From IMG/VR virus record IMGVR_UViG_3300029448_000152, positions 9,718 through 32,866 of that record: 23,149 nt of DNA, one strand, 5' to 3'. Shown in pieces: positions 9,708 to 18,869 of this stretch. Positions within the stretch are counted from its first letter, which is position 1, and each line of letters starts with the position of its first letter. The position numbers and the translations under genes are program-made. The DNA is from a virus. Below the pieces are notes generated by a model. That model saw nothing but the letters and a program-made list of their open reading frames with translations. It searched no databases and had not been told where the DNA came from.

Positions 9708-10245
9708 ATTTAATTGTAATGTCTTTTGTTCTTACTTTATATAAACGTTCACCATCAATAATAAATTCATACTCACTGTTTGGAGTAAAACCAACCAAAC
9801 TATTTACTTCTGGTAGATTTTTATTAGTATGTTTTATTATACCTATTAATGGTTGTTCTTTATTAGTATCAAACATATCATTAGATTTTATTGGTTTTAC
9901 AAAACAACAATCATCTAATGGTATCCACTTATTATTTCTTTTATAAGCAAACACTTGATCCATAAAAACAAAATATAAGTTATCTTTATAATAAGCTTTA
10001 CTATCTTGCTCAATACCTCTCACATCTGTATATCTTCTAAATACATTGTGGTGCACTATTATAGTGTCACCTACTTTTATATCTGTTTTAAATAAAGATG
10101 GCGTAGAAATTACTACAGCTTCTCTACTAACATATTGGTGTTGAAAAATATCTGTATTAACTATTATTTCTTTTCCACCTATGTTTTTAGTATTATTGTA
10201 TCTATTATCTTTAGGTTTTATTATAAAGTTATATATACTTTTCAC
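9661..10245 (-). CDS. GroES-like co-chaperonin, with a second GroES-like half
   Basis: A 194-residue protein resembling GroES-family co-chaperonins, which cap GroEL during folding; phages such as T4 (gp31) encode their own for capsid folding. Residues 7-16 (FIIKPKDNRY) match the first GroES strand, and NIGGKEIIV follows like the mobile loop GGI-V motif. IKVGDTIIV (56-64) matches VKVGD-VIF, and YYKDNLYFVFMDQVFAYK (85-102) corresponds to the strand before the terminal IL-A segment. Residues 132-180 repeat the pattern: LIGIIKHTN, NSLVGFTPNSEYEFIIDGER and LYKVRTKDITIKY align with the second half of GroES. The start is GTG, overlapping the upstream TAG stop (TAGTG), so it is coupled. The call rests on motif reading only. 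Confidence 0.6.
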   Translation of the reverse strand: MKSIYNFIIKPKDNRYNNTKNIGGKEIIVNTDIFQHQYVSREAVVISTPSLFKTDIKVGDTIIVHHNVFRRYTDVRGIEQDSKAYYKDNLYFVFMDQVFAYKRNNKWIPLDDCCFVKPIKSNDMFDTNKEQPLIGIIKHTNKNLPEVNSLVGFTPNSEYEFIIDGERLYKVRTKDITIKYEYQGKEKEYNPSWL

Positions 10246-10776: not shown

Positions 10777-11682
10777 TTACTTCTTTTTCTTAACATCAGC
10801 AATAAACCAATCTTTATATGCATCTCTTTTCTTTGATATGTACTCAAAATACTTATCCACCTTCTCTCTCCAATTTTTATCTAACCAAGGATTTATGATG
10901 CCTGATTCAAAATTAGAAAAACTGTGATTAATAAATTCTTTGATATTGTCTTGATGAGTAAAGAGGTAGTTGTTAATTGTATAAAAAGATCCTTGTTGTA
11001 TATTATTCCATATATCAATAGCTTCTATCTTTTTACCTAACACTGCTGCGTATGCAGCACTTTCACTTATGTGAGTAGTATATACTGTTTTAGCTTTTTG
11101 CATGTAATAATACATGTCAATATTTCTAGGTAGTATGCAATCTTCACCAAAAAAATCTTTTAATTCACCTATAATCTGATGTGTTGTAATAGGGTGTGGT
11201 TTAAAATAAATGTTATTACCGTGTTGTTTTTTAATATGCCTTAATCTATTTAAACAAACATTTGTTTTTATTTTGTTAGATCCAGGTAAAACAACCAAAT
11301 AATCTTTTGGTGGATACTTTTCAAAGTCTTGACTTCTTTCAGTATATTTATTAGCAACATTATTTTGTATGTTGTCTATTAAAAATCCAGCATAATCATG
11401 CTTAGGACACTTTGAACAATTCTTATGCCAAGCATCAGCTAATTGTTCATTTCTTAATTTAAAATTTAAAGGTTGTAGATAAAAATTACCTGCAAACTCT
11501 GTATATCCAATAGTTTTAAAATAAGGCATTTCTTCAGCTAATACATCATAGCTTGATTCTATACCATATTCGCTACACTTTCTAATAACATAACCTTCTA
11601 TGTTTTCTAGTTCGTATAGTCTTTTTTCTTTTTTTAAAGGACCTATTCTATTATCCAGCTCCTTTTTATTAAACATTTCCAT
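10777..11682 (-). CDS. GT-B / capsule-polysaccharide-type glycosyltransferase-like protein
   Basis: A 301-residue cytoplasmic-type protein. The C-terminal half has the order of motifs seen in capsule polysaccharide and CDP-glycerol/Kdo-transferase-like GT-B folds. There is a strand with PGSNK (133-137), then NIYFKPHPI (157-165) matching the common KPHP nucleotide-site motif. TVYTTHISESAAYAAVLGKK (199-218) then corresponds to the conserved segment before the substrate loop that usually reads like D-SS-A-EAL-LGKP. A pair of cysteines (CSKC, 89-92) may bind metal. It lies directly downstream of the Thr-rich repeat gene, so it may decorate that fibre or other virion surface. A sugar-modifying role on DNA or host glycan is an alternative. 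The fold call is moderate and the substrate unknown. Confidence 0.58.
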   Translation of the reverse strand: MEMFNKKELDNRIGPLKKEKRLYELENIEGYVIRKCSEYGIESSYDVLAEEMPYFKTIGYTEFAGNFYLQPLNFKLRNEQLADAWHKNCSKCPKHDYAGFLIDNIQNNVANKYTERSQDFEKYPPKDYLVVLPGSNKIKTNVCLNRLRHIKKQHGNNIYFKPHPITTHQIIGELKDFFGEDCILPRNIDMYYYMQKAKTVYTTHISESAAYAAVLGKKIEAIDIWNNIQQGSFYTINNYLFTHQDNIKEFINHSFSNFESGIINPWLDKNWREKVDKYFEYISKKRDAYKDWFIADVKKKK

Positions 11683-11739: not shown

Positions 11740-13830
11740 CTATGTACCTTGCCTACCACCACTTATGTAAGGATATGTATGTAATAAGCCTTCCATTGCC
11801 TTGTTAGGTAGTTGATACCAATTAGTTATAAACTTAGTACTAGTGCTAGTATTATACGTAGTTGTAGTGTTCGTACTAGTGTTGTACGTGGTTGTTGTTG
11901 ACTTAGTTGTATTATAAGTTGTTATTGTACTTGTACTAGTGTTAAACGCTGTAATAGTTATTGTCTGTGTTATAGTACTAGTGTTAAACGTAGTTGTGTA
12001 AACAGTGGTGGTATCGGTTTGTGTGTTATAAACAGTGGTGGTACTTGTGTTCCATGATGTTTTATACACAGTATTAGTTGTTGTACTAGTGTTAAACGTA
12101 GTCGTAGTTGTTTTACTTGTATTCGTACTAGTATTAAAAGTTGTCGTAAATTCAGTTATCCAAGTAGTTATAGTTATCGTGTTTGTTGATCTACTTGTAT
12201 TCCAGTATGACGTATACTCTGTCGTTGTATCTTTTTGAGTTTCTACAACGGTTGATGTAGCTTTAGACGTAGCCCAAGTCGTAGTTCTAGATGTAATACT
12301 TGATGTTGACACTACAGTTGTTGTGCTAGTGTTATATGTTGTAACAGTGCTAGTGTTAAATGTTGTTGTAGTATTCTTATTAGTATTATACGTTGTAGTA
12401 GTACTTTTACTAGTAACTGTACTTGTATTATAAGCAGTAACAAATGAAGTTATCCATGTTGTTATTGTAATTGTTTGAGTATTTTTACTAGTGTTCCAAT
12501 ATGTTATATATACAGTACTTGTGTCTTTTTGAGTTTCTACAACGGTTGATGTTGACTTACTTGTTGCCCAAGTAGTTGTTCTATTTGTAATTTTACTTGT
12601 TGACCAAGAAGTCGTTCTAGTTGTATTATATACCGTAGTTGTCTGTGTATTAAACGTAGTAGTAGTAGCCTTACTAGTATTAAAAGTCGTAGTAGTTGAC
12701 TTACTTGTTACCGTGCTTGTATTGTACGCTGTTACAAATTCAGTTATCCAAGTTGTAGTTGTGCTTCTACTTTCCGTAGTAGTAGTACTTGTGTTATAAG
12801 TTGTAGTCCTACTAGTAGCCCAAGTAGTAGTAGTACTTTTTGATGTTACTGTACTAGTATTAAATGTTGTGCTAGTAGTATATACTGTACTTGTAGACCT
12901 CTGTTCTACTGTAGTTGTGCTTGTATTATAAGTAGTACTAGTTGTATATATAGTTTGAGTACTCCTACTCTCCGTTGTGTTTTTACTAGTAGACCAACTA
13001 GTAGATCTAGATGTAATAGTACTAGTATTAAACGTGGTACTTGTGGTATAAGTAGTCGTCGTTGACCTTTTCTCTATAGTTGATGTAGAAGTATTAAACG
13101 TGGTACTTGTAGTGTAAGTAGTGGTCGTGCTTCTACTTTCAGTTGTTGATGTACTAGTATTATACGCTGTAGTGGTACCAAATGTGGTGGTCCAACTAGT
13201 TGTATAAACTGTGGATGTTGCGGTTGATGTGTTGTAAACCGTGCTTGTCGTATACACTGTAGTTGTACTTCTTTTTTCTATAGTTGTTGTAGAAGTATTA
13301 TAAGTAGTGGTAGTATTATAAGTAGTAGTAGTATTTCTACTTTCTACTGTGTTTTTACTTGTAGCCCAAGTTGTTGTGGTGCCAAAAGTAGTAGTCCAAC
13401 TAGTAGTGTATGTAGTTGTAGTTGACTTTGACGTATTGAACGTTGTACTAGTTGTATATGTTGTTGTAGTAGTATATACTGTACTTGTACTTTTACTAGT
13501 TGCAAAAGTAGTACTAGTTGATTTACTAGTGTTTGTACTAGTATTATATGCTGTAACAAAATTAGTAATCCAAGTTGTAGTATACGCAGTAGTTGTACTT
13601 TTACTTGTGTTAAATGTAGTTGTTCTAGATGTAGCCCAAGTGGTAGTAGTTGAGTGATTCGTACTTCTACTAGTTGTCCACGTAGTTGTCCTACTAGTAT
13701 TCCAAGTAGTAGTACGTGAAGTGGAACGTAAGTGCGTATTCCTACTAGTAGCCGTATTTTGACTAGCATTAGTTATTCTCTTTGTAAGAGTTGCCCGAGA
13801 TGTCGATGTATTTCTACTAGTATTCGGCAT
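11740..13830 (-). CDS. Giant Thr-rich alternating-repeat protein (fibre candidate) 1
   Basis: A 696-residue protein that is repetitive almost end to end. In the unit I counted, 40 of 98 residues are Thr and 12 Ser. Residues alternate by parity: one parity carries Thr, Tyr/Phe/Trp or Lys/Arg, the other Asn, Ser, Thr, Val or Ile. NTS and NTT (N-x-S/T sequons) recur dozens of times. Two exact-length 98-residue units occur in tandem, and a third begins after them. The only non-repetitive part is the last 30 residues (NWYQLPNKAMEGLLHTYPYI, ending GGRQGT). There is no signal peptide. The alternation implies extended beta structure, probably an elongated homo-oligomeric fibre, though no structure is known to me. 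It is followed by a glycosyltransferase-like gene. Mutational slippage could change its length. Confidence 0.82.
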   Translation of the reverse strand: MPNTSRNTSTSRATLTKRITNASQNTATSRNTHLRSTSRTTTWNTSRTTTWTTSRSTNHSTTTTWATSRTTTFNTSKSTTTAYTTTWITNFVTAYNTSTNTSKSTSTTFATSKSTSTVYTTTTTYTTSTTFNTSKSTTTTYTTSWTTTFGTTTTWATSKNTVESRNTTTTYNTTTTYNTSTTTIEKRSTTTVYTTSTVYNTSTATSTVYTTSWTTTFGTTTAYNTSTSTTESRSTTTTYTTSTTFNTSTSTIEKRSTTTTYTTSTTFNTSTITSRSTSWSTSKNTTESRSTQTIYTTSTTYNTSTTTVEQRSTSTVYTTSTTFNTSTVTSKSTTTTWATSRTTTYNTSTTTTESRSTTTTWITEFVTAYNTSTVTSKSTTTTFNTSKATTTTFNTQTTTVYNTTRTTSWSTSKITNRTTTWATSKSTSTVVETQKDTSTVYITYWNTSKNTQTITITTWITSFVTAYNTSTVTSKSTTTTYNTNKNTTTTFNTSTVTTYNTSTTTVVSTSSITSRTTTWATSKATSTVVETQKDTTTEYTSYWNTSRSTNTITITTWITEFTTTFNTSTNTSKTTTTTFNTSTTTNTVYKTSWNTSTTTVYNTQTDTTTVYTTTFNTSTITQTITITAFNTSTSTITTYNTTKSTTTTYNTSTNTTTTYNTSTSTKFITNWYQLPNKAMEGLLHTYPYISGGRQGT
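12163..12750 (-). repeat. Two tandem 294-bp (98-codon) super-repeats in Thr-rich protein 1
   Basis: Unit 1 spans 12750 to 12457 and unit 2 spans 12456 to 12163; a third unit begins at 12162 and diverges. Each starts with WIT(E/S)F. They align without gaps over 98 codons, for example WATSK at unit position 61, VETQKDT at 71 and TITITT at the end. A stretch of 29 bases is identical between copies (12524-12552 and 12230-12258), whereas elsewhere 12 of the first 21 shared residues use different codons. Confidence 0.85.
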
Positions 13831-13832
13831 AG

Positions 13833-14381
13833 CTACGCGTTTTTAATTGTTGTTTTTGGTACTATTGGAAAATATATTCTACCATTCATATTTATATGAT
13901 CCATATAGTTGTTTTCTAAATCTGTTATATTTTGACCAGTTATTTCAAAATGCCAAAATAAATCAGCGATAATTAAATCGTATTTTTTATTAGGTACGTA
14001 AGTATAAGCATCCGCTTTTATAATATTTATTGGACTAGATAAATAATCAACGTAGTCAATTAACTCTTGATTATTGTCTACAACATCGATAACTTGTACA
14101 AAATCTTTATTATCTTTTATGTATTGAGGTAGTGTACCTAAACCTAAACCCAATACTAAAACATTTGGATAATTAGGTATACCTTCAAATAATCTAAAGT
14201 GCTCTCTTGATGTAGGTACTTCACTATTACCTTCTTCACCTTGACCCATAAAAGCTTTACCATAATGCTCTTTGTTTTCTATGGTATTACCTTCGGTAAA
14301 TGTCAAAGTAGACACACCATCAACTTTTGCAACTGAAAAGCTAGTTCCTGTATATTCTGATATTAATTCTTCGTTTACCAT
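13833..14381 (-). CDS. SAM-dependent methyltransferase / spermidine-synthase-like protein
   Basis: A class I Rossmann-fold protein of 182 residues if started at ATG 14381 (MVNEELISEY). An ATG at 14420 would give 195 residues but overlap the upstream gene, so the shorter start, 13 bases after that stop, is preferred. Motif I is VLVLGLGLGTLP (74-85), the acidic ribose-binding strand is VIDVVDNN (97-104), the next strand ends in KADAY (D124), and motif IV is YDLIIADLFW (134-143). This order and the YD-II-D motif resemble spermidine synthase-like proteins. The family's usual N-terminal beta domain is reduced (about 70 residues). It lies between the two Thr-rich repeat genes, so it may modify them. 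Aminopropyl transfer versus methylation cannot be told from sequence. Confidence 0.72.
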   Translation of the reverse strand: MVNEELISEYTGTSFSVAKVDGVSTLTFTEGNTIENKEHYGKAFMGQGEEGNSEVPTSREHFRLFEGIPNYPNVLVLGLGLGTLPQYIKDNKDFVQVIDVVDNNQELIDYVDYLSSPINIIKADAYTYVPNKKYDLIIADLFWHFEITGQNITDLENNYMDHINMNGRIYFPIVPKTTIKNA

Positions 14382-14394
14382 ATTAATTATTTGT

Positions 14395-16701
14395 TTACCA
14401 TTGACTACAAGTATATACACTTGTTACTACACCACCAGCTCCAACATACACAACTTTATCAGCACTAAATGAAGATGATCCAGATACTGGCCACCATCCA
14501 CTACTTGCATATGATGAACATGATGAATTAGTATATAATGTACTACCTACACCAAAACTAAACCATGACACGTTTGAACCAGCAGCTGTAGCAGTCATTT
14601 CCATACAACCAAATGCTGCTTTTTGTACTGTGCCTGTTGCTCTATAAAATGTAAAACAAGATGTAGTGCTATATGTAGTTGTAGTGTTAAACGTAGTAGT
14701 AGTATTATACTCTGTTTGTATTTGAAAAGCAGTTGTTGTATTAAATACTGTACTTGTACTAGTATTAAATGTTGTTGTTCTACTAGTGTTAAATGTTGTT
14801 GTTCTACTTGTGTTCCAATACGTAGTATAAGTTGTTGTTGTTGATTTTGACGTATTAAATGTTGTTGTTCTAGACGTGTTCCATGTGGTTGTAGTACTTT
14901 TACTAGTTCCTTGACTTGTAGATCTTTTTGTTGTAGTACTAGTATTATAATTTGTTGTCCAAGTAGTAGTTGTATTTCTTGATGTGTTCCAAGTAGTAGT
15001 TGTATTTCTGCTTTCGGTTGTACTTCTACTTTCAGTTGTATTTCTACTAGTGGCCCAAGTAGTAGTTGTTGACCTACTTGTTGTTTTACTAGTTGTTCTA
15101 GACGTTTGTGTCGTGGTACTAGTATTGAAAGTCGTACTTGTTGTATAAGTAGTAGTCGTATTTCTTGATTCACTTGTTGTCTTACTAGTATTGTAATTTG
15201 TAGTAGTTGTATATATAGTCTGTGTACTTCTTGATTCAGTTGTATTTTTACTAGTTGATACAACGGTGCTAGTATTTCTACTTGTAGATTTTGAAGTTGA
15301 TCTAGATGTCTGAGTAGTAGTACTAGTGTTGTATGCGGTAGTTGTACTATATACAGTTGTTGTCGATCTACTTTCAGTTGTGTTTCTACTAGTATTATAC
15401 GTTGTGGTAGTAGTGTATATAGTTTGTGTACTTCTGCTTTCAGTCGTGTTTTTAGATGTAGACCAAGATGTTGTAAATATAGTTATAGTACTAGTATTGA
15501 ATACCGTACTAGTAGTATATGTTGTAGTTGTTGATCTTTTTTCTATAGTATTTTTACTTGTGTTAAAAGTAGTCGTAGTTGTATACGTAGTCGTTGTGTT
15601 TCTACTTTCAGTTGTATTTTTACTTGTCGCCCATGTAGTTGTATAAGCTGTTGTAGTAGATTTACTAGTATTAAAAGTTGTTGTTCTGCTAGTATTGTAA
15701 GCAGTAGTTGTGCTATACACCGTCGTTGTGGACTTAGATGTAGATTTCTTAGTTGTCGTACTTGTATTATATGTTGTTGTATAAGCTGTAGACGTTGATC
15801 TACTCGTTGACCAAGTTGTAGTAGTAGATTTACTAGTTGCCCAGGTTGTAGTTTTTGATGTATTAAAAGTTGTAACAGTACTTGTATTAAAAGTAGTAGT
15901 GTATACAGTATTCGTACTTGTGTTAAAAGTAGTAGTTGTATTCGTACTTGTGTTATATACTGTTATAGTTGTTCTACTAGTTGCTAAACTTGCCTGTGTT
16001 TGATAAACAGTCTCATATATAGTTATTGTATTTTGAGATGTAGATTTCTTAGTTGTTGTACTCGTGTTATACGCAGTAGTATAGGCAGTGGTAGTACTCT
16101 TACTAGTATTATATATAGTAGTAGTTGACTTATTTGTAGACCACGTAGTTTCTTTACTTGTATTAAACGTAGTTACTGTACTAGTATTGAATGTAGTTGT
16201 ATATGTAGTTACAGTACTAGTATTAAATGTTGTGGTCGTGTTTGTGCTAGTATTGTATACAGTTATAGTAGTCCTATCTGTAATCCTACTTGTTTGGAAA
16301 GTAGTTGTATATACAGTTGTGGTATCTTTTGAAGTAGATTTTTTAGTAGTTGTACTAGTATTATACGTAGTAGACCAAGTGGTTGTAGTATTTTTACTTG
16401 TAGACCAATTTGTAGTCGTGTCTTTATTTGTAATTCTAAAGGTTTCCCAAGTTGTTGTTTTACTAGTTGTGTAATATGTAATAGTGATTGTATTCGTGGT
16501 CTTAGAAGTAGCCCACGTAGTTGTATATACTGTAGTAGTATTTTTAGAAGTTTCCCAAGTTGTATCAGTCGACTTGGTAGTATTATATGTAGTAGTAGTC
16601 GCAGTACTCGTGTTAAACGTAGTACTCGTTGACTTACTAGTAGATACAGTAGTATTTTTACTAGTGTTCCATATGTCTAATCTTGACCAAAACCACTTCA
16701 T
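14395..16701 (-). CDS. Giant Thr-rich alternating-repeat protein (fibre candidate) 2, with C-terminal Cys-containing tip
   Basis: A 768-residue paralogue of the protein at 11740-13830. Residues 1-12 are a unique basic/aromatic start (MKWFWSRLDIW). Residues about 12-672 are Thr-rich alternating repeats, including 98-, 100- and 68-residue units. In the first 98-residue unit every residue of one parity is Thr, aromatic or Lys/Arg. The last ~95 residues form a distinct compact domain with four Cys (SCFTFYR, FGCME, SSCSSY, YTCSQW) and VGSTLYTNSSCSS, GWWPVSG, YVGAGGVVTSVYTC. These resemble small C-terminal modules of Bacteroidota phage adhesins, and this could be the receptor-binding tip. No membrane anchor is seen. 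The order fibre shaft, then tip, is inferred. Confidence 0.83.
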   Translation of the reverse strand: MKWFWSRLDIWNTSKNTTVSTSKSTSTTFNTSTATTTTYNTTKSTDTTWETSKNTTTVYTTTWATSKTTNTITITYYTTSKTTTWETFRITNKDTTTNWSTSKNTTTTWSTTYNTSTTTKKSTSKDTTTVYTTTFQTSRITDRTTITVYNTSTNTTTTFNTSTVTTYTTTFNTSTVTTFNTSKETTWSTNKSTTTIYNTSKSTTTAYTTAYNTSTTTKKSTSQNTITIYETVYQTQASLATSRTTITVYNTSTNTTTTFNTSTNTVYTTTFNTSTVTTFNTSKTTTWATSKSTTTTWSTSRSTSTAYTTTYNTSTTTKKSTSKSTTTVYSTTTAYNTSRTTTFNTSKSTTTAYTTTWATSKNTTESRNTTTTYTTTTTFNTSKNTIEKRSTTTTYTTSTVFNTSTITIFTTSWSTSKNTTESRSTQTIYTTTTTYNTSRNTTESRSTTTVYSTTTAYNTSTTTQTSRSTSKSTSRNTSTVVSTSKNTTESRSTQTIYTTTTNYNTSKTTSESRNTTTTYTTSTTFNTSTTTQTSRTTSKTTSRSTTTTWATSRNTTESRSTTESRNTTTTWNTSRNTTTTWTTNYNTSTTTKRSTSQGTSKSTTTTWNTSRTTTFNTSKSTTTTYTTYWNTSRTTTFNTSRTTTFNTSTSTVFNTTTAFQIQTEYNTTTTFNTTTTYSTTSCFTFYRATGTVQKAAFGCMEMTATAAGSNVSWFSFGVGSTLYTNSSCSSYASSGWWPVSGSSSFSADKVVYVGAGGVVTSVYTCSQW
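15034..15441 (-). repeat. Two tandem 204-bp (68-codon) super-repeats in Thr-rich protein 2
   Basis: Unit 1 spans 15441 to 15238 and unit 2 spans 15237 to 15034; both begin ESRSTQTIYTT and share TTTQTSR near unit position 41-47. They are followed by another ESRST at 15033. Length 68 is even, so the alternating residue parity is kept. Confidence 0.8.
15751..16344 (-). repeat. Tandem 294-bp and 300-bp super-repeats in Thr-rich protein 2
   Basis: Unit 1 (98 codons) spans 16344 to 16051 and unit 2 (100 codons) spans 16050 to 15751. Each starts with KKSTS and contains RTTITVYNTSTNTTTTFNTS. The two extra residues of unit 2 lie in QASLATSR where unit 1 has SRITDR. A third KKSTS begins at 15750 and then diverges. 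Confidence 0.83.
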
Positions 16702-16712
16702 ATTCTATTAGA

Positions 16713-17084
16713 TTAAGCGAACATTCCAATATAGTTGATCAACACTTGATCACTAGCATTTACATAGTAAGATATTAAATGAACATTGTTCGCGGTTGTG
16801 TTAAAAGTAATTGACGATCCTCCCGGCGTTTTAATATCACCAGCAGTTCCAGCTACATTTATAGAAAAGCTCAATGATCCAACACTTGCAGGATTAGTTA
16901 TAATAATAGTACCAGCTTGACCAACGACAGAACCAGCTTCATCTAACCGTATAGTTGTAGCTTCGTTAGAAGCATTAACTTTATAATTAGCATTAGTAGA
17001 CAACTTAATATTGTGACTTCCACTAGTGTTAGTTGTTGTTTTTGGTTCTGCAGGAACTGCATTACTTAAAAAAGGTATACCCAT
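16713..17084 (-). CDS. Small virion/fibre-associated structural protein
   Basis: A 123-residue beta-rich protein. It opens with MGIPFLSNAVPAEP, similar to the MAIPILNH start of the next upstream fibre gene. The core (VGQAGTIIITNPASVGSLSF) and the C-terminus (HLISYYVNASDQVLINYIGM) match a pattern I recall from small virion proteins of marine phages, where GTI-ITNP is followed by SYYV and a final YIG-F strand. It sits between the main fibre gene and the first Thr-rich repeat gene, 11 bases before the latter, so it may be a fibre adaptor or shaft-joining protein. No catalytic motif is seen. The upstream gap contains the second UUCG hairpin. Confidence 0.7.
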   Translation of the reverse strand: MGIPFLSNAVPAEPKTTTNTSGSHNIKLSTNANYKVNASNEATTIRLDEAGSVVGQAGTIIITNPASVGSLSFSINVAGTAGDIKTPGGSSITFNTTANNVHLISYYVNASDQVLINYIGMFA

Positions 17085-17150: not shown

Positions 17151-18869
17151 TTAAGATATTGCAGGGAATTTCTCAATAAGAACCAGATAATCTTCTGTCG
17201 CTGAAGGAGCAGACGCGAAAATTAATGAAACTGCATCATCTGAGTTTCTTTTTATCTCAACCATAACTTGATCATAAGTTGCGCCAGAGCCATTATTACC
17301 ATAATCTAAAACAGTAACACCAACTATTGGCGTGCTAAATGAGTGTGTAATATTAAATGTAGTTGTAGAAGCATCTCCAGATAACTTTTTAGTTAACTTA
17401 TTGGCACTAGCTTCTTTAGCATCTAACTGAGTTTGAATAGCTGAGGTTACACCATCTACATAATTTAATTCAGTAGTTGTGGCTGTAACACCATCCATTA
17501 TATTTAACTCTGAAGCAGTTGCAGTAACACCGTCTAAAATATTTAACTCTGAAGCAGTTGAAGTAACACCATCTAAAATGTTTAATTCAGCAGCTGTACT
17601 AGTTACACCATCAAGGATGTTAAGTTCAGCAGCGGTAGATGTCACACCATCAAGGATGTTAAGTTCAGCAGGAGTTGAGGTTATTGTTTCTGTTGCAGCA
17701 GCAGCAAATAAAGCAACGTGACCAGATAAATTTGGTAATGTTATTGTTTTATCACTACTAGTTGCATCTGCAGCAGTAAGCTTTACTTCATAATCATCAG
17801 CGGTAGTACCCTCAAACTGTATTGTGTTATTCTCTACAACTTGTATTGTTTCGTTCTGTATTGTTTGTGTTCCAGAAACTACTAAGTTACCAGGTATGGT
17901 AATTGTATCACTAGCATCACCAATGCTTGCAGCATTACTTGCAAAACCAGCTCCTAATTTTGTTTTAAAGTTTGCAGCTGAAATATTATCAACAGCTGTA
18001 TCACCAGCTAAAGCAGTTGTACTTGAAGTACCTAATTCTAATAAAGATGTTTTACCATCTAGTAAGTTTATTTCTGTAGCGTTTGATGTAACACCGTCAA
18101 GTATATTAAGCTCTGCTGCAGTAGATGTTACGCCATCTAATATGTTAAGCTCCGCTGCGGTAGAAGTTACACCGTCAAGTATGTTTAATTCCGCGGCAGT
18201 AGAGGTTACTCCGTCTAATATATTAAGTTCAGCCGCTGTTGATGTAACTCCGTCAAGGATGTTTAATTCAGCCGCTGTTGAAGTAACAGAAGTTCCATTA
18301 ATAGCTAAAACGTCAACTTCAGCAGTTCCATCAATATATAAGTTTCTCCATTGTTTTGTACTTGATCCTAAGTCTCTAGCATCATCAGTTCCTGGTATAA
18401 GAGCAGTTCCATTCCATCTTACTTCGCCACCATTAACAGATAGTTTAATCATTCCATCAGTCGCGAAGTCAATCATTTCATGATCACTAGCGTCAACATA
18501 TGCTCTACCGACTTTTAACGCAGTATTATATACACTTGTTATAGTTGTTTGACCTGCAGTAATAGCGACGTCGTTAGCGTTTGCTGTAATACCGTCACCA
18601 CCAACAACATCTAAAGTTGGATTTACTGTGCTTGTGCCGGATTGTGTCATACCGTCTCCAGCGGTTACAGATGTTACAGTACCAGATCCTGATCCAGTAC
18701 CAAGTGTGACCCAATTAGAACCATTATTGAATTTAATGCTTCCTGAGTCGTAAATTATTTGTCCAGCCTCATTGCCAGATATGTCTCCCGTACCTGCTTT
18801 ATGGAGCAGAACGTTTCGGATTTCCCCCTTTTGTTGAAAATCCATGTGATTTAAAATAGGTATTGCCAT
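17151..18869 (-). CDS. Tail fibre protein with TAAELNILDGVTS repeats
   Basis: A 572-residue fibre protein. The start (MAIPILNHMDFQQKGEIRNV) resembles N-termini that attach phage fibres to the tail. Residues 197-274 hold six 13-residue repeats (STAAELNILDGVT), and residues 398-475 hold six more. Between them is IQNETIQVVENNTIQFEG and DKTITLPNLSGHVAL, a block I recall from marine phage fibres. The C-terminal domain (TTFNITHSFSTPIVGVTVLD, ending EDYLVLIEKF) resembles the C-terminal part of the next upstream gene product and may contact the receptor. The repeats probably form a trimeric shaft. The start lies after a hairpin-containing gap. It is not clear whether it or the Thr-rich proteins bind host cells. 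Confidence 0.85.
   Translation of the reverse strand: MAIPILNHMDFQQKGEIRNVLLHKAGTGDISGNEAGQIIYDSGSIKFNNGSNWVTLGTGSGSGTVTSVTAGDGMTQSGTSTVNPTLDVVGGDGITANANDVAITAGQTTITSVYNTALKVGRAYVDASDHEMIDFATDGMIKLSVNGGEVRWNGTALIPGTDDARDLGSSTKQWRNLYIDGTAEVDVLAINGTSVTSTAAELNILDGVTSTAAELNILDGVTSTAAELNILDGVTSTAAELNILDGVTSTAAELNILDGVTSNATEINLLDGKTSLLELGTSSTTALAGDTAVDNISAANFKTKLGAGFASNAASIGDASDTITIPGNLVVSGTQTIQNETIQVVENNTIQFEGTTADDYEVKLTAADATSSDKTITLPNLSGHVALFAAAATETITSTPAELNILDGVTSTAAELNILDGVTSTAAELNILDGVTSTASELNILDGVTATASELNIMDGVTATTTELNYVDGVTSAIQTQLDAKEASANKLTKKLSGDASTTTFNITHSFSTPIVGVTVLDYGNNGSGATYDQVMVEIKRNSDDAVSLIFASAPSATEDYLVLIEKFPAIS
17445..17678 (-). repeat. Six 39-bp in-frame repeats (fibre array B)
   Basis: Six 13-codon units encode variants of STAAELNILDGVT. 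They drift towards the C-terminus: ILDGVTA, then IMDGVTA, then YVDGVTS. There are no spacers, so this is a coding shaft repeat and not CRISPR. Confidence 0.85.
18048..18281 (-). repeat. Six 39-bp in-frame repeats (fibre array A)
   Basis: Five 13-codon units with identical protein sequence (STAAELNILDGVT) are followed by a sixth, degenerate unit (SNATEINLLDGKT). Codons vary between units although the protein is unchanged. Confidence 0.87.

Follow-up and report, generated by a model that had tools for sequence, protein, structure and literature searches.

A dedicated chaperone gene is often found downstream of phage fibre genes, the Peptidase_S74 chaperone is a mark of trimeric fibres, and some phages carry receptor-modifying enzymes near their fibre genes. 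In sialyl- and Kdo-transferases, CMP is bound by a (K/R)XHP motif (PMC12887879), and mycobacteriophages are described as having glycosylated virions (Freeman et al. 2023, as cited in PMC12619734). A literature search that covered few subscription journals found no description of Thr-rich phage fibres. Here we describe a phage locus in which two Thr-rich proteins are encoded together with a predicted glycosyltransferase (P0005), and we propose, with a probability of roughly 0.6, that P0005 is a dedicated CMP-sugar (probably Kdo) transferase that attaches sugar to the Thr face of a tail fibre.

The window, that is the whole stretch of DNA that was analysed, comprises 23,149 nucleotides (positions 9,718 to 32,866) of IMG/VR record IMGVR_UViG_3300029448_000152, an incomplete viral record of 36,334 bases. 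Matches to PHROG families in the window include terminase, portal, capsid and connector genes. The terminase, portal and capsid genes are homologous to those of Elemovirus/Cellulophaga-type podoviruses and stand in the same order, and among the matches listed TerL is 44.5-62.9% identical to that of Flavobacterium phage elemo and of an environmental podovirus. The window phage is probably a relative of the Flavobacterium and Cellulophaga podoviruses. In the coding direction, its fibre block runs P0019, P0004, P0006, Thr-rich protein A (P0002), P0003, Thr-rich protein B (P0001), P0005, small genes and terminase, with the following features:

17151..18869, minus strand: P0004, probable tail-fibre protein with TAAELNILDGVT repeats, in the same fibre gene block
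16713..17084, minus strand: P0006, small protein encoded immediately upstream of protein A (cluster c3)
14395..16701, minus strand: Thr-rich protein A (P0002, 768 aa), with a homologue of 751 aa in the related locus L001
14398..14676, minus strand: non-repetitive C-terminal tip of P0002 (residues ~676-768), probable distal domain with a putative function
13833..14420, minus strand: P0003 (195 aa), AdoMet-binding, spermidine-synthase-like (phrog_15480 methyltransferase, E 7e-4), between P0002 and P0001
11740..13830, minus strand: Thr-rich protein B (P0001, 696 aa), with a homologue of 677 aa in L001
10777..11682, minus strand: P0005 (301 aa), partner enzyme, GT-B-like glycosyltransferase of the phrog_26179 family
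11545..11547, minus strand: Asp46 codon of P0005, putative catalytic acidic residue, 100% conserved in 113 sequences
11191..11202, minus strand: K161-P-H-P164 codons of P0005, (K/R)XHP CMP-binding motif, in 113/113 family members

P0002 consists of an N-terminal MKWFWSRLDIWNT motif, an alternating core of ~665 residues and a 90-residue C-terminal tip containing Cys, Gly and Trp, while P0001 consists of an N-terminal MPNTSRNTS, an alternating core of ~620 residues and a short C-terminal motif. The P0006 group sits upstream of protein A in many loci. In the slot of P0003, other phages have a different AdoMet-enzyme family (cluster c11), and the two families alternate between Thr-rich A and B; P0003 used as a search bait gave no matches. 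Elsewhere in the window, P0018 (19272-19670) resembles the three-helix holin family GTA_holin_3TM (E 9.9e-7), and P0007 (9661-10245), near the terminase gene, has the position of the elemo-phage gene annotated as GroES. Many relatives encode GroEL and GroES themselves, upstream of the fibre block (L001:2-550; cluster c12/c13 loci).

An earlier note on this DNA had proposed that the Thr-rich chains alternate strictly between two faces, one of them holding only Thr, aromatic or basic residues, and recounting bore this out. In the unit at 16344-16051, all 49 even positions are of these kinds (31 Thr, 6 Tyr, 5 Lys, 4 Phe, 2 Arg and 1 Trp), and the odd positions hold one Lys and no aromatic residue. 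The unit at 12750-12457, where the Thr face is odd, obeys the rule with Val71 (Thr face) and Tyr84 (other face) as its sole deviations. A shuffle control over the full cores showed that the bias persists beyond these units, in one register for >600 residues in each protein. Across residues 5-670 of P0002, the odd face comprises 197 Thr, 66 aromatic and 54 basic residues among 333 positions, and the even face has 3 aromatic and 5 basic residues; across residues 35-655 of P0001, the Thr face comprises 195 Thr, 66 aromatic and 37 basic residues among 311, and the other face has 2 aromatic and 3 basic. When the register was fixed globally, the parity statistic came to 317 of a possible 347 for P0002 (z 27.6) and 297 of a possible 317 for P0001 (z 27.0) relative to composition-preserving shuffles, the best of 20,000 of which reached 81 and 69, respectively. 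The register of P0001 flips once, near residue 32. The chains are built from [aromatic or basic]-x-Thr-x units of four residues and [aromatic or basic]-x-Thr-x-Thr-x units of six.

Compared with their L001 homologues, the two ORFs differ at codon positions 1/2/3 in 100/142/308 and 89/138/303 cases, and their codon changes divide into 230 synonymous versus 156 non-synonymous and 228 versus 150. Since the differences pile up at codon position 3 and synonymous changes exceed non-synonymous ones, both Thr-rich ORFs are real protein genes under purifying selection. ORFs that overlap them (window 13344-13769, 13349-13657, 14595-15263, 15326-15646 and 16088-16474) look like by-products of the repeat composition rather than genes. 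The coding strand is indeed poor in G, as had been pointed out (0.128), but this was rejected as a separate feature, since it follows from the amino-acid composition together with the codon use of the phage (predicted values 0.105/0.094). The word 'giant', which had also been used, suits relatives of >2,800 aa; at 696 and 768 aa, the window proteins are modest.

To place the grammar in sequence collections, a degenerate DNA pattern (T-x-[YF]-N-T-[ST]-T...-[YF]-N-T-[ST]-T) was searched for, and it matched at least 120 viral contig stretches. At least 166 Thr-rich ORFs were read, from about 120 viral DNA stretches, and the virus group bearing the grammar is mostly marine. Among 84,980 bacterial and archaeal genomes (11.3 million contigs), a single contig (L125) matched, and it has phage gene order. 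L125 is binned to a Flavobacteriales MAG (TMED123) and is phage DNA with the same block, which gives a hint of the host. Searches of isolate phages by tblastn and blastn with Thr-rich sequences gave no useful matches, low-complexity filtering presumably masking the queries, and isolate phages with Thr-rich ORFs were reached only via enzyme searches. A scan of five isolate records with the DNA pattern, which was fitted to the marine grammar, gave zero matches; a protein search later recovered their ORFs.

Across the Thr-rich ORFs read, a fit over 107,114 core residues called for only 103 register changes; it used the non-Thr residues, which leaves the face counts of aromatic, basic and Ser/Asn residues partly circular. 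The Thr counts and the fixed-register shuffle test on P0001 and P0002 are not circular. In L105, 2,787 core residues run with no register shift. Thr stands at both +2 and -2 for 14,821 of the 16,442 aromatic or basic core residues. The Thr face carries 6,460 Lys/Arg and 792 Asp/Glu, and the other face 171 and 1,736 (the basic counts being partly circular).

Conservation also differs between the two faces. Thr identity is 98.2% of 14,831 aligned sites on the Thr (aromatic/basic) face and 86.4% of 7,818 on the other; Thr/Ser exchanges number 20 of 15,069 versus 816 of 8,843, and Thr/Val exchanges 13 of 15,069 versus 327 of 8,843. Lys/Arg and Phe/Tyr exchange freely in aligned homologues. Since Thr on the Thr face is rarely replaced by Ser or Val, Thr itself is demanded there, beyond a beta-branched or hydroxyl residue, and packing alone could produce this extreme specificity. 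In 81 homologous pairs, which are phylogenetically non-independent, 181 of the 190 core indels are even in length, an excess to which six-base slippage could contribute. Selection on the strict binary pattern is well supported by the fixed register, the even indels and the unequal Thr conservation taken together. Ice-binding TxT arrays, considered as a possible parallel to the Thr face, were set aside, since bulky residues break this face every two or three positions.

No sequence match to the Thr-rich shaft was found in Pfam or PHROGs, queried with P0001 and P0002, or in the PDB, queried with P0002, and the assertion that no described fibre fold has this grammar holds as tested. No Peptidase_S74 domain was found in the window proteins. 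Among relatives, this domain scores above the cut-off in L070 and below it in L010 and L016, and class A relatives have variable C-terminal domains in place of the P0002 tip, some with the Peptidase_S74 chaperone. An 1835-aa protein encoded in a T4-like baseplate context (L032:1930-7437) has a Thr-rich tail of ~900 residues. Given the S74 domain in a class A relative, this fusion in a baseplate context and the position in a tail-fibre block, the two Thr-rich proteins are probably tail fibre shafts.

The pattern fits the extended, two-faced beta structure suggested previously, but an AF2 monomer prediction for the last 300 residues of P0001, based on 46 homologues and a weak test of a probable trimer, gave no confident fold (pLDDT 36, pTM 0.22). 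This value and the low complexity would suit disordered, mucin-like glycoproteins with no regular beta structure, in which parity reflects the preference of an enzyme (X-x-T-x), and the four-residue [R/Y]-x-T-x units in the partners from KVP40 and Caulobacter phages, described below, could be such a sequon. A local sequon alone, however, needs neither a register held for >2,700 residues nor the near absence of odd indels, and we regard disorder of this kind as rather unlikely.

P0005 matches phrog_26179, a family of phage proteins of unknown function, in a profile comparison (E 4.6e-32, residues 13-289). Its AF2 model (pLDDT 88.5, pTM 0.87), compared using Foldseek, has a GT-B fold. Four PDB matches had E <0.001: the Kdo transferase KrkA with CMP (9yfx, E 1.2e-4), KpsC (8fux) and two chains of MnaA, a UDP-GlcNAc 2-epimerase; TagF and the O-GlcNAc transferase GtfA came next. 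The Foldseek probability is ~1 for 9yfx, 8fux and other GT-B enzymes, with low TM-scores of 0.3-0.45. In BFVD, the closest models (TM 0.73-0.81) are those of the homologue from Vibrio phage VH1_2019 and of a protein of 321 residues, which is also the length of the Cr30 enzyme.

Among 113 divergent family members, D46, K112, Y113, N136, K161, H163, P164 and E207 are 100% conserved, and the (K/R)XHP motif, KPHP in P0005, is present in all 113. P0005 lacks the QXXXD nucleophile found in retaining Kdo transferases, and a QXXXD string at residues 110-150 occurs in only 14 of the 113. The mechanism of P0005 would therefore differ, or its donor would be another CMP-sugar, and we do not file it within the retaining Kdo transferase families. 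The best explanation is that P0005 is a dedicated CMP-sugar-type GT-B glycosyltransferase, with CMP-Kdo transferases as the nearest structures to its model. The analysis shows the grammar and its conservation, the pairing of fibre and enzyme genes, a predicted GT-B fold with a CMP motif, and Kdo-synthesis genes in relatives; that the enzyme is active, which donor it uses, which residue accepts the sugar, and the location in the virion and the role are inferred.

The Thr face might instead be purely structural, in an unglycosylated trimeric beta-fibre for which P0005 is a folding helper, a pseudo-enzyme derived from a glycosyltransferase. A tightly packed beta-fibre would equally give strict parity, even indels and Thr invariance, and dedicated downstream chaperone genes are frequent for phage fibres. 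We judge this unlikely, as the CMP-binding and candidate catalytic residues are invariant across branches of ~20% identity, unlike in a pseudo-enzyme, kdsA and kdsB-like genes occur in relatives, and AF2 gave no confident fold for the shaft.

The proposal that P0005 acts on the Thr-rich proteins is addressed by gene order. Among 140 Thr-rich ORFs with room downstream, the next gene encodes a member of the P0005 family in 93, an AdoMet-enzyme in 46 and another protein in 1. The 46 AdoMet-enzyme genes belong to two families and stand between Thr-rich A and B; the sole exception is L032, whose Thr-rich module has no P0005 relative on its contig. In the reverse test, a Thr-rich ORF lies directly upstream of 76/76 close enzyme relatives with room, and of 77/77 enzymes with room from a 24%-identity branch; the loci counted in both directions include redundant contigs. 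The enzyme is also present in 17 of 19 records that hold Thr-rich loci without a visible enzyme. The earlier note, correct as to the grammar of the Thr face, had missed this partner, which changes the likely meaning of that face.

Forty-five records of cultured phages have the enzyme (35 Vibrio, 9 Caulobacter and 1 Stenotrophomonas), and eleven were read as representatives. At 20-26% enzyme identity, the pair is found in KVP40, phi-pp2, QD01, 6E35.1a, D479, F86, BL199, Lullwater and Quill_5.2; in the first six of these, the Thr-rich ORF is just upstream with a small coiled gene between. In these Vibrio phages, 17-24 of 22-27 intervals between aromatic/basic residues are multiples of four, and in the Caulobacter phages BL199 and Lullwater, Thr repeats at lags of 4, 8 and 12 (z up to 8.1) and avoids lags of 2 and 6. 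Cr30 pairs more loosely, with a Thr/Tyr-rich partner that has no periodicity, and DLP6 is the sole enzyme bearer seen without an adjacent Thr-rich ORF.

D479 and F86 were considered as counter-examples and rejected, since each has an unannotated Thr-rich ORF adjoining the enzyme gene. These ORFs (L297:1486-1998, 170 aa, in D479; L296:1501-2058, 185 aa, in F86) are absent from the public annotation, which has small ORFs instead. KVP40-type Thr-rich proteins are labelled 'cell wall mannoprotein' (L130:7893-8423, L292:4237-4770 and L294:3280-3786), a label that is probably a composition artefact.

A clue to the donor comes from genes for Kdo synthesis. KdsA occurs in 9 of the 28 records tested and in 12 of 50,697 isolate records, only 4 of these with >40% identity. 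In one myovirus-like group, with a tail-sheath-like gene nearby (recognized by eye from the sequence), kdsA directly follows the enzyme gene and is followed by a cupin gene and a GT29-like gene; its product scores above curated cut-offs as a KDO-8-P synthase. Within a second group (L026/L085), no more than three genes separate kdsA from the enzyme gene, and in three relatives of the window phage, 68-71 kb long, it adjoins a KdsB-like gene, whose best family, CMP-Kdo synthetase, is matched below the cut-off. No kdsA is present in the window's own record (36 kb, incomplete), and it is absent from 3 of 7 relatives >65 kb. A cassette of cupin, KdsB-like, KdsA and GT8-like genes, the last recognized by eye, was also observed (L311:365-2712, contig G015; L312; 70.8 kb relative of the window phage). 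Recoding of an in-frame TGA in the kdsA of two relatives was considered and rejected, TGA being the normal terminator.

KdsA and KdsB could serve host LPS. P0005 and the Kds enzymes might modify host LPS or capsule for receptor masking or superinfection exclusion and be mere neighbours of the fibre genes, a placement known for receptor-modifying enzymes in some phages; capsule Kdo transferases are among the nearest folds of P0005. Against this, the pairing is near one-to-one and preserves gene order across podoviruses, myoviruses, Caulobacter phages and Vibrio phages, and the Thr-rich partner is kept though rearranged, which makes action on the host alone improbable. That six-base slippage created the pattern at the DNA level with no selection on the protein is scarcely credible: tandem repeats exist and most indels are multiples of six bases, but substitution is unequal between the faces (Thr 98.2% versus 86.4%), variation at third codon positions is free and cellular genomes almost entirely lack the pattern.

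For the preferred reading, a glycosylated Thr face, we propose the following mechanism. One face of an extended chain would consist of Thr punctuated by aromatic or basic residues, and P0005, acting in the cytoplasm, would transfer a CMP-activated acidic sugar, with Kdo as the best candidate, to Thr of this face before or during virion assembly. Lys/Arg spacers would offset the charge of the sugar carboxylates, aromatics would stack against the sugars, and the glycosylated fibre that results would be stiff. A glycosylated Thr face would explain the requirement for Thr only, the excess of basic over acidic residues there (6,460 versus 792, the former partly circular), the constant partner and the Kdo genes. 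More tentatively, these phages might have an appendage of a class so far undescribed: fibres of up to thousands of residues in a two-residue face code that are O-glycosylated with Kdo, an acidic eight-carbon sugar, on nearly every Thr of one face by a phage CMP-Kdo:protein threonine transferase, some of the phages bringing Kdo synthesis genes of their own.

The module is shared by many marine viral contigs and by cultured phages of Vibrio and Caulobacter. Its parts are all either called hypothetical or given wrong names, and some records omit the Thr-rich partner altogether. Should the sugar coat prove real, protein glycosylation would gain a new system, Kdo a new role and phage fibres a new architecture with a simple code; if the sugar is Kdo, a bacterial outer-membrane sugar would be building material of a virion surface.

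Compared with the retaining beta-Kdo transferases KpsC (GT107), WbbB (GT99) and KrkA (GT140), P0005 shares the predicted GT-B fold and (K/R)XHP, and KrkA and KpsC are among its best structural neighbours in the PDB, though with low TM-scores. Unlike these enzymes, P0005 has no QXXXD, is phage-encoded and is tied to a Thr-rich protein; their acceptors are capsule or O-antigen, whereas that of P0005 is presumably a protein. The (K/R)XHP motif, the one motif compared, is also shared with bacterial CMP-sialic acid transferases (e.g. GT42, GT52 and GT80; PMC12887879), to which P0005 has no sequence-family match.

Mycobacteriophages share with our proposal the presence of glycans on phage virion proteins, which here are predicted. 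According to PMC12619734, their glycans are at the C-termini of capsid and tail-tube proteins, whereas the target proposed here is a whole Thr-coded fibre, and the enzyme family differs and is accompanied by Kdo-synthesis genes. Glycosylated-virion chemistry is thus already known, and the present case would be a variant of it. Trimeric S74 tail fibres have a C-terminal S74 in common with some class A relatives but not with the window protein, and their known folds have Gly/Pro-containing repeats that the Thr-rich shaft lacks. As far as we have found, the fibre class and its coupling to the P0005 family have no described counterpart. The same pair of a Thr-rich alternating protein and an enzyme of the same family is formed by KVP40.0254/.0256 and by BL199 gp042/gp043, where the partners, annotated as hypothetical or 'cell wall mannoprotein', differ from those of the window in being shorter (cores of ~110-220 residues) and in having a four-residue unit.
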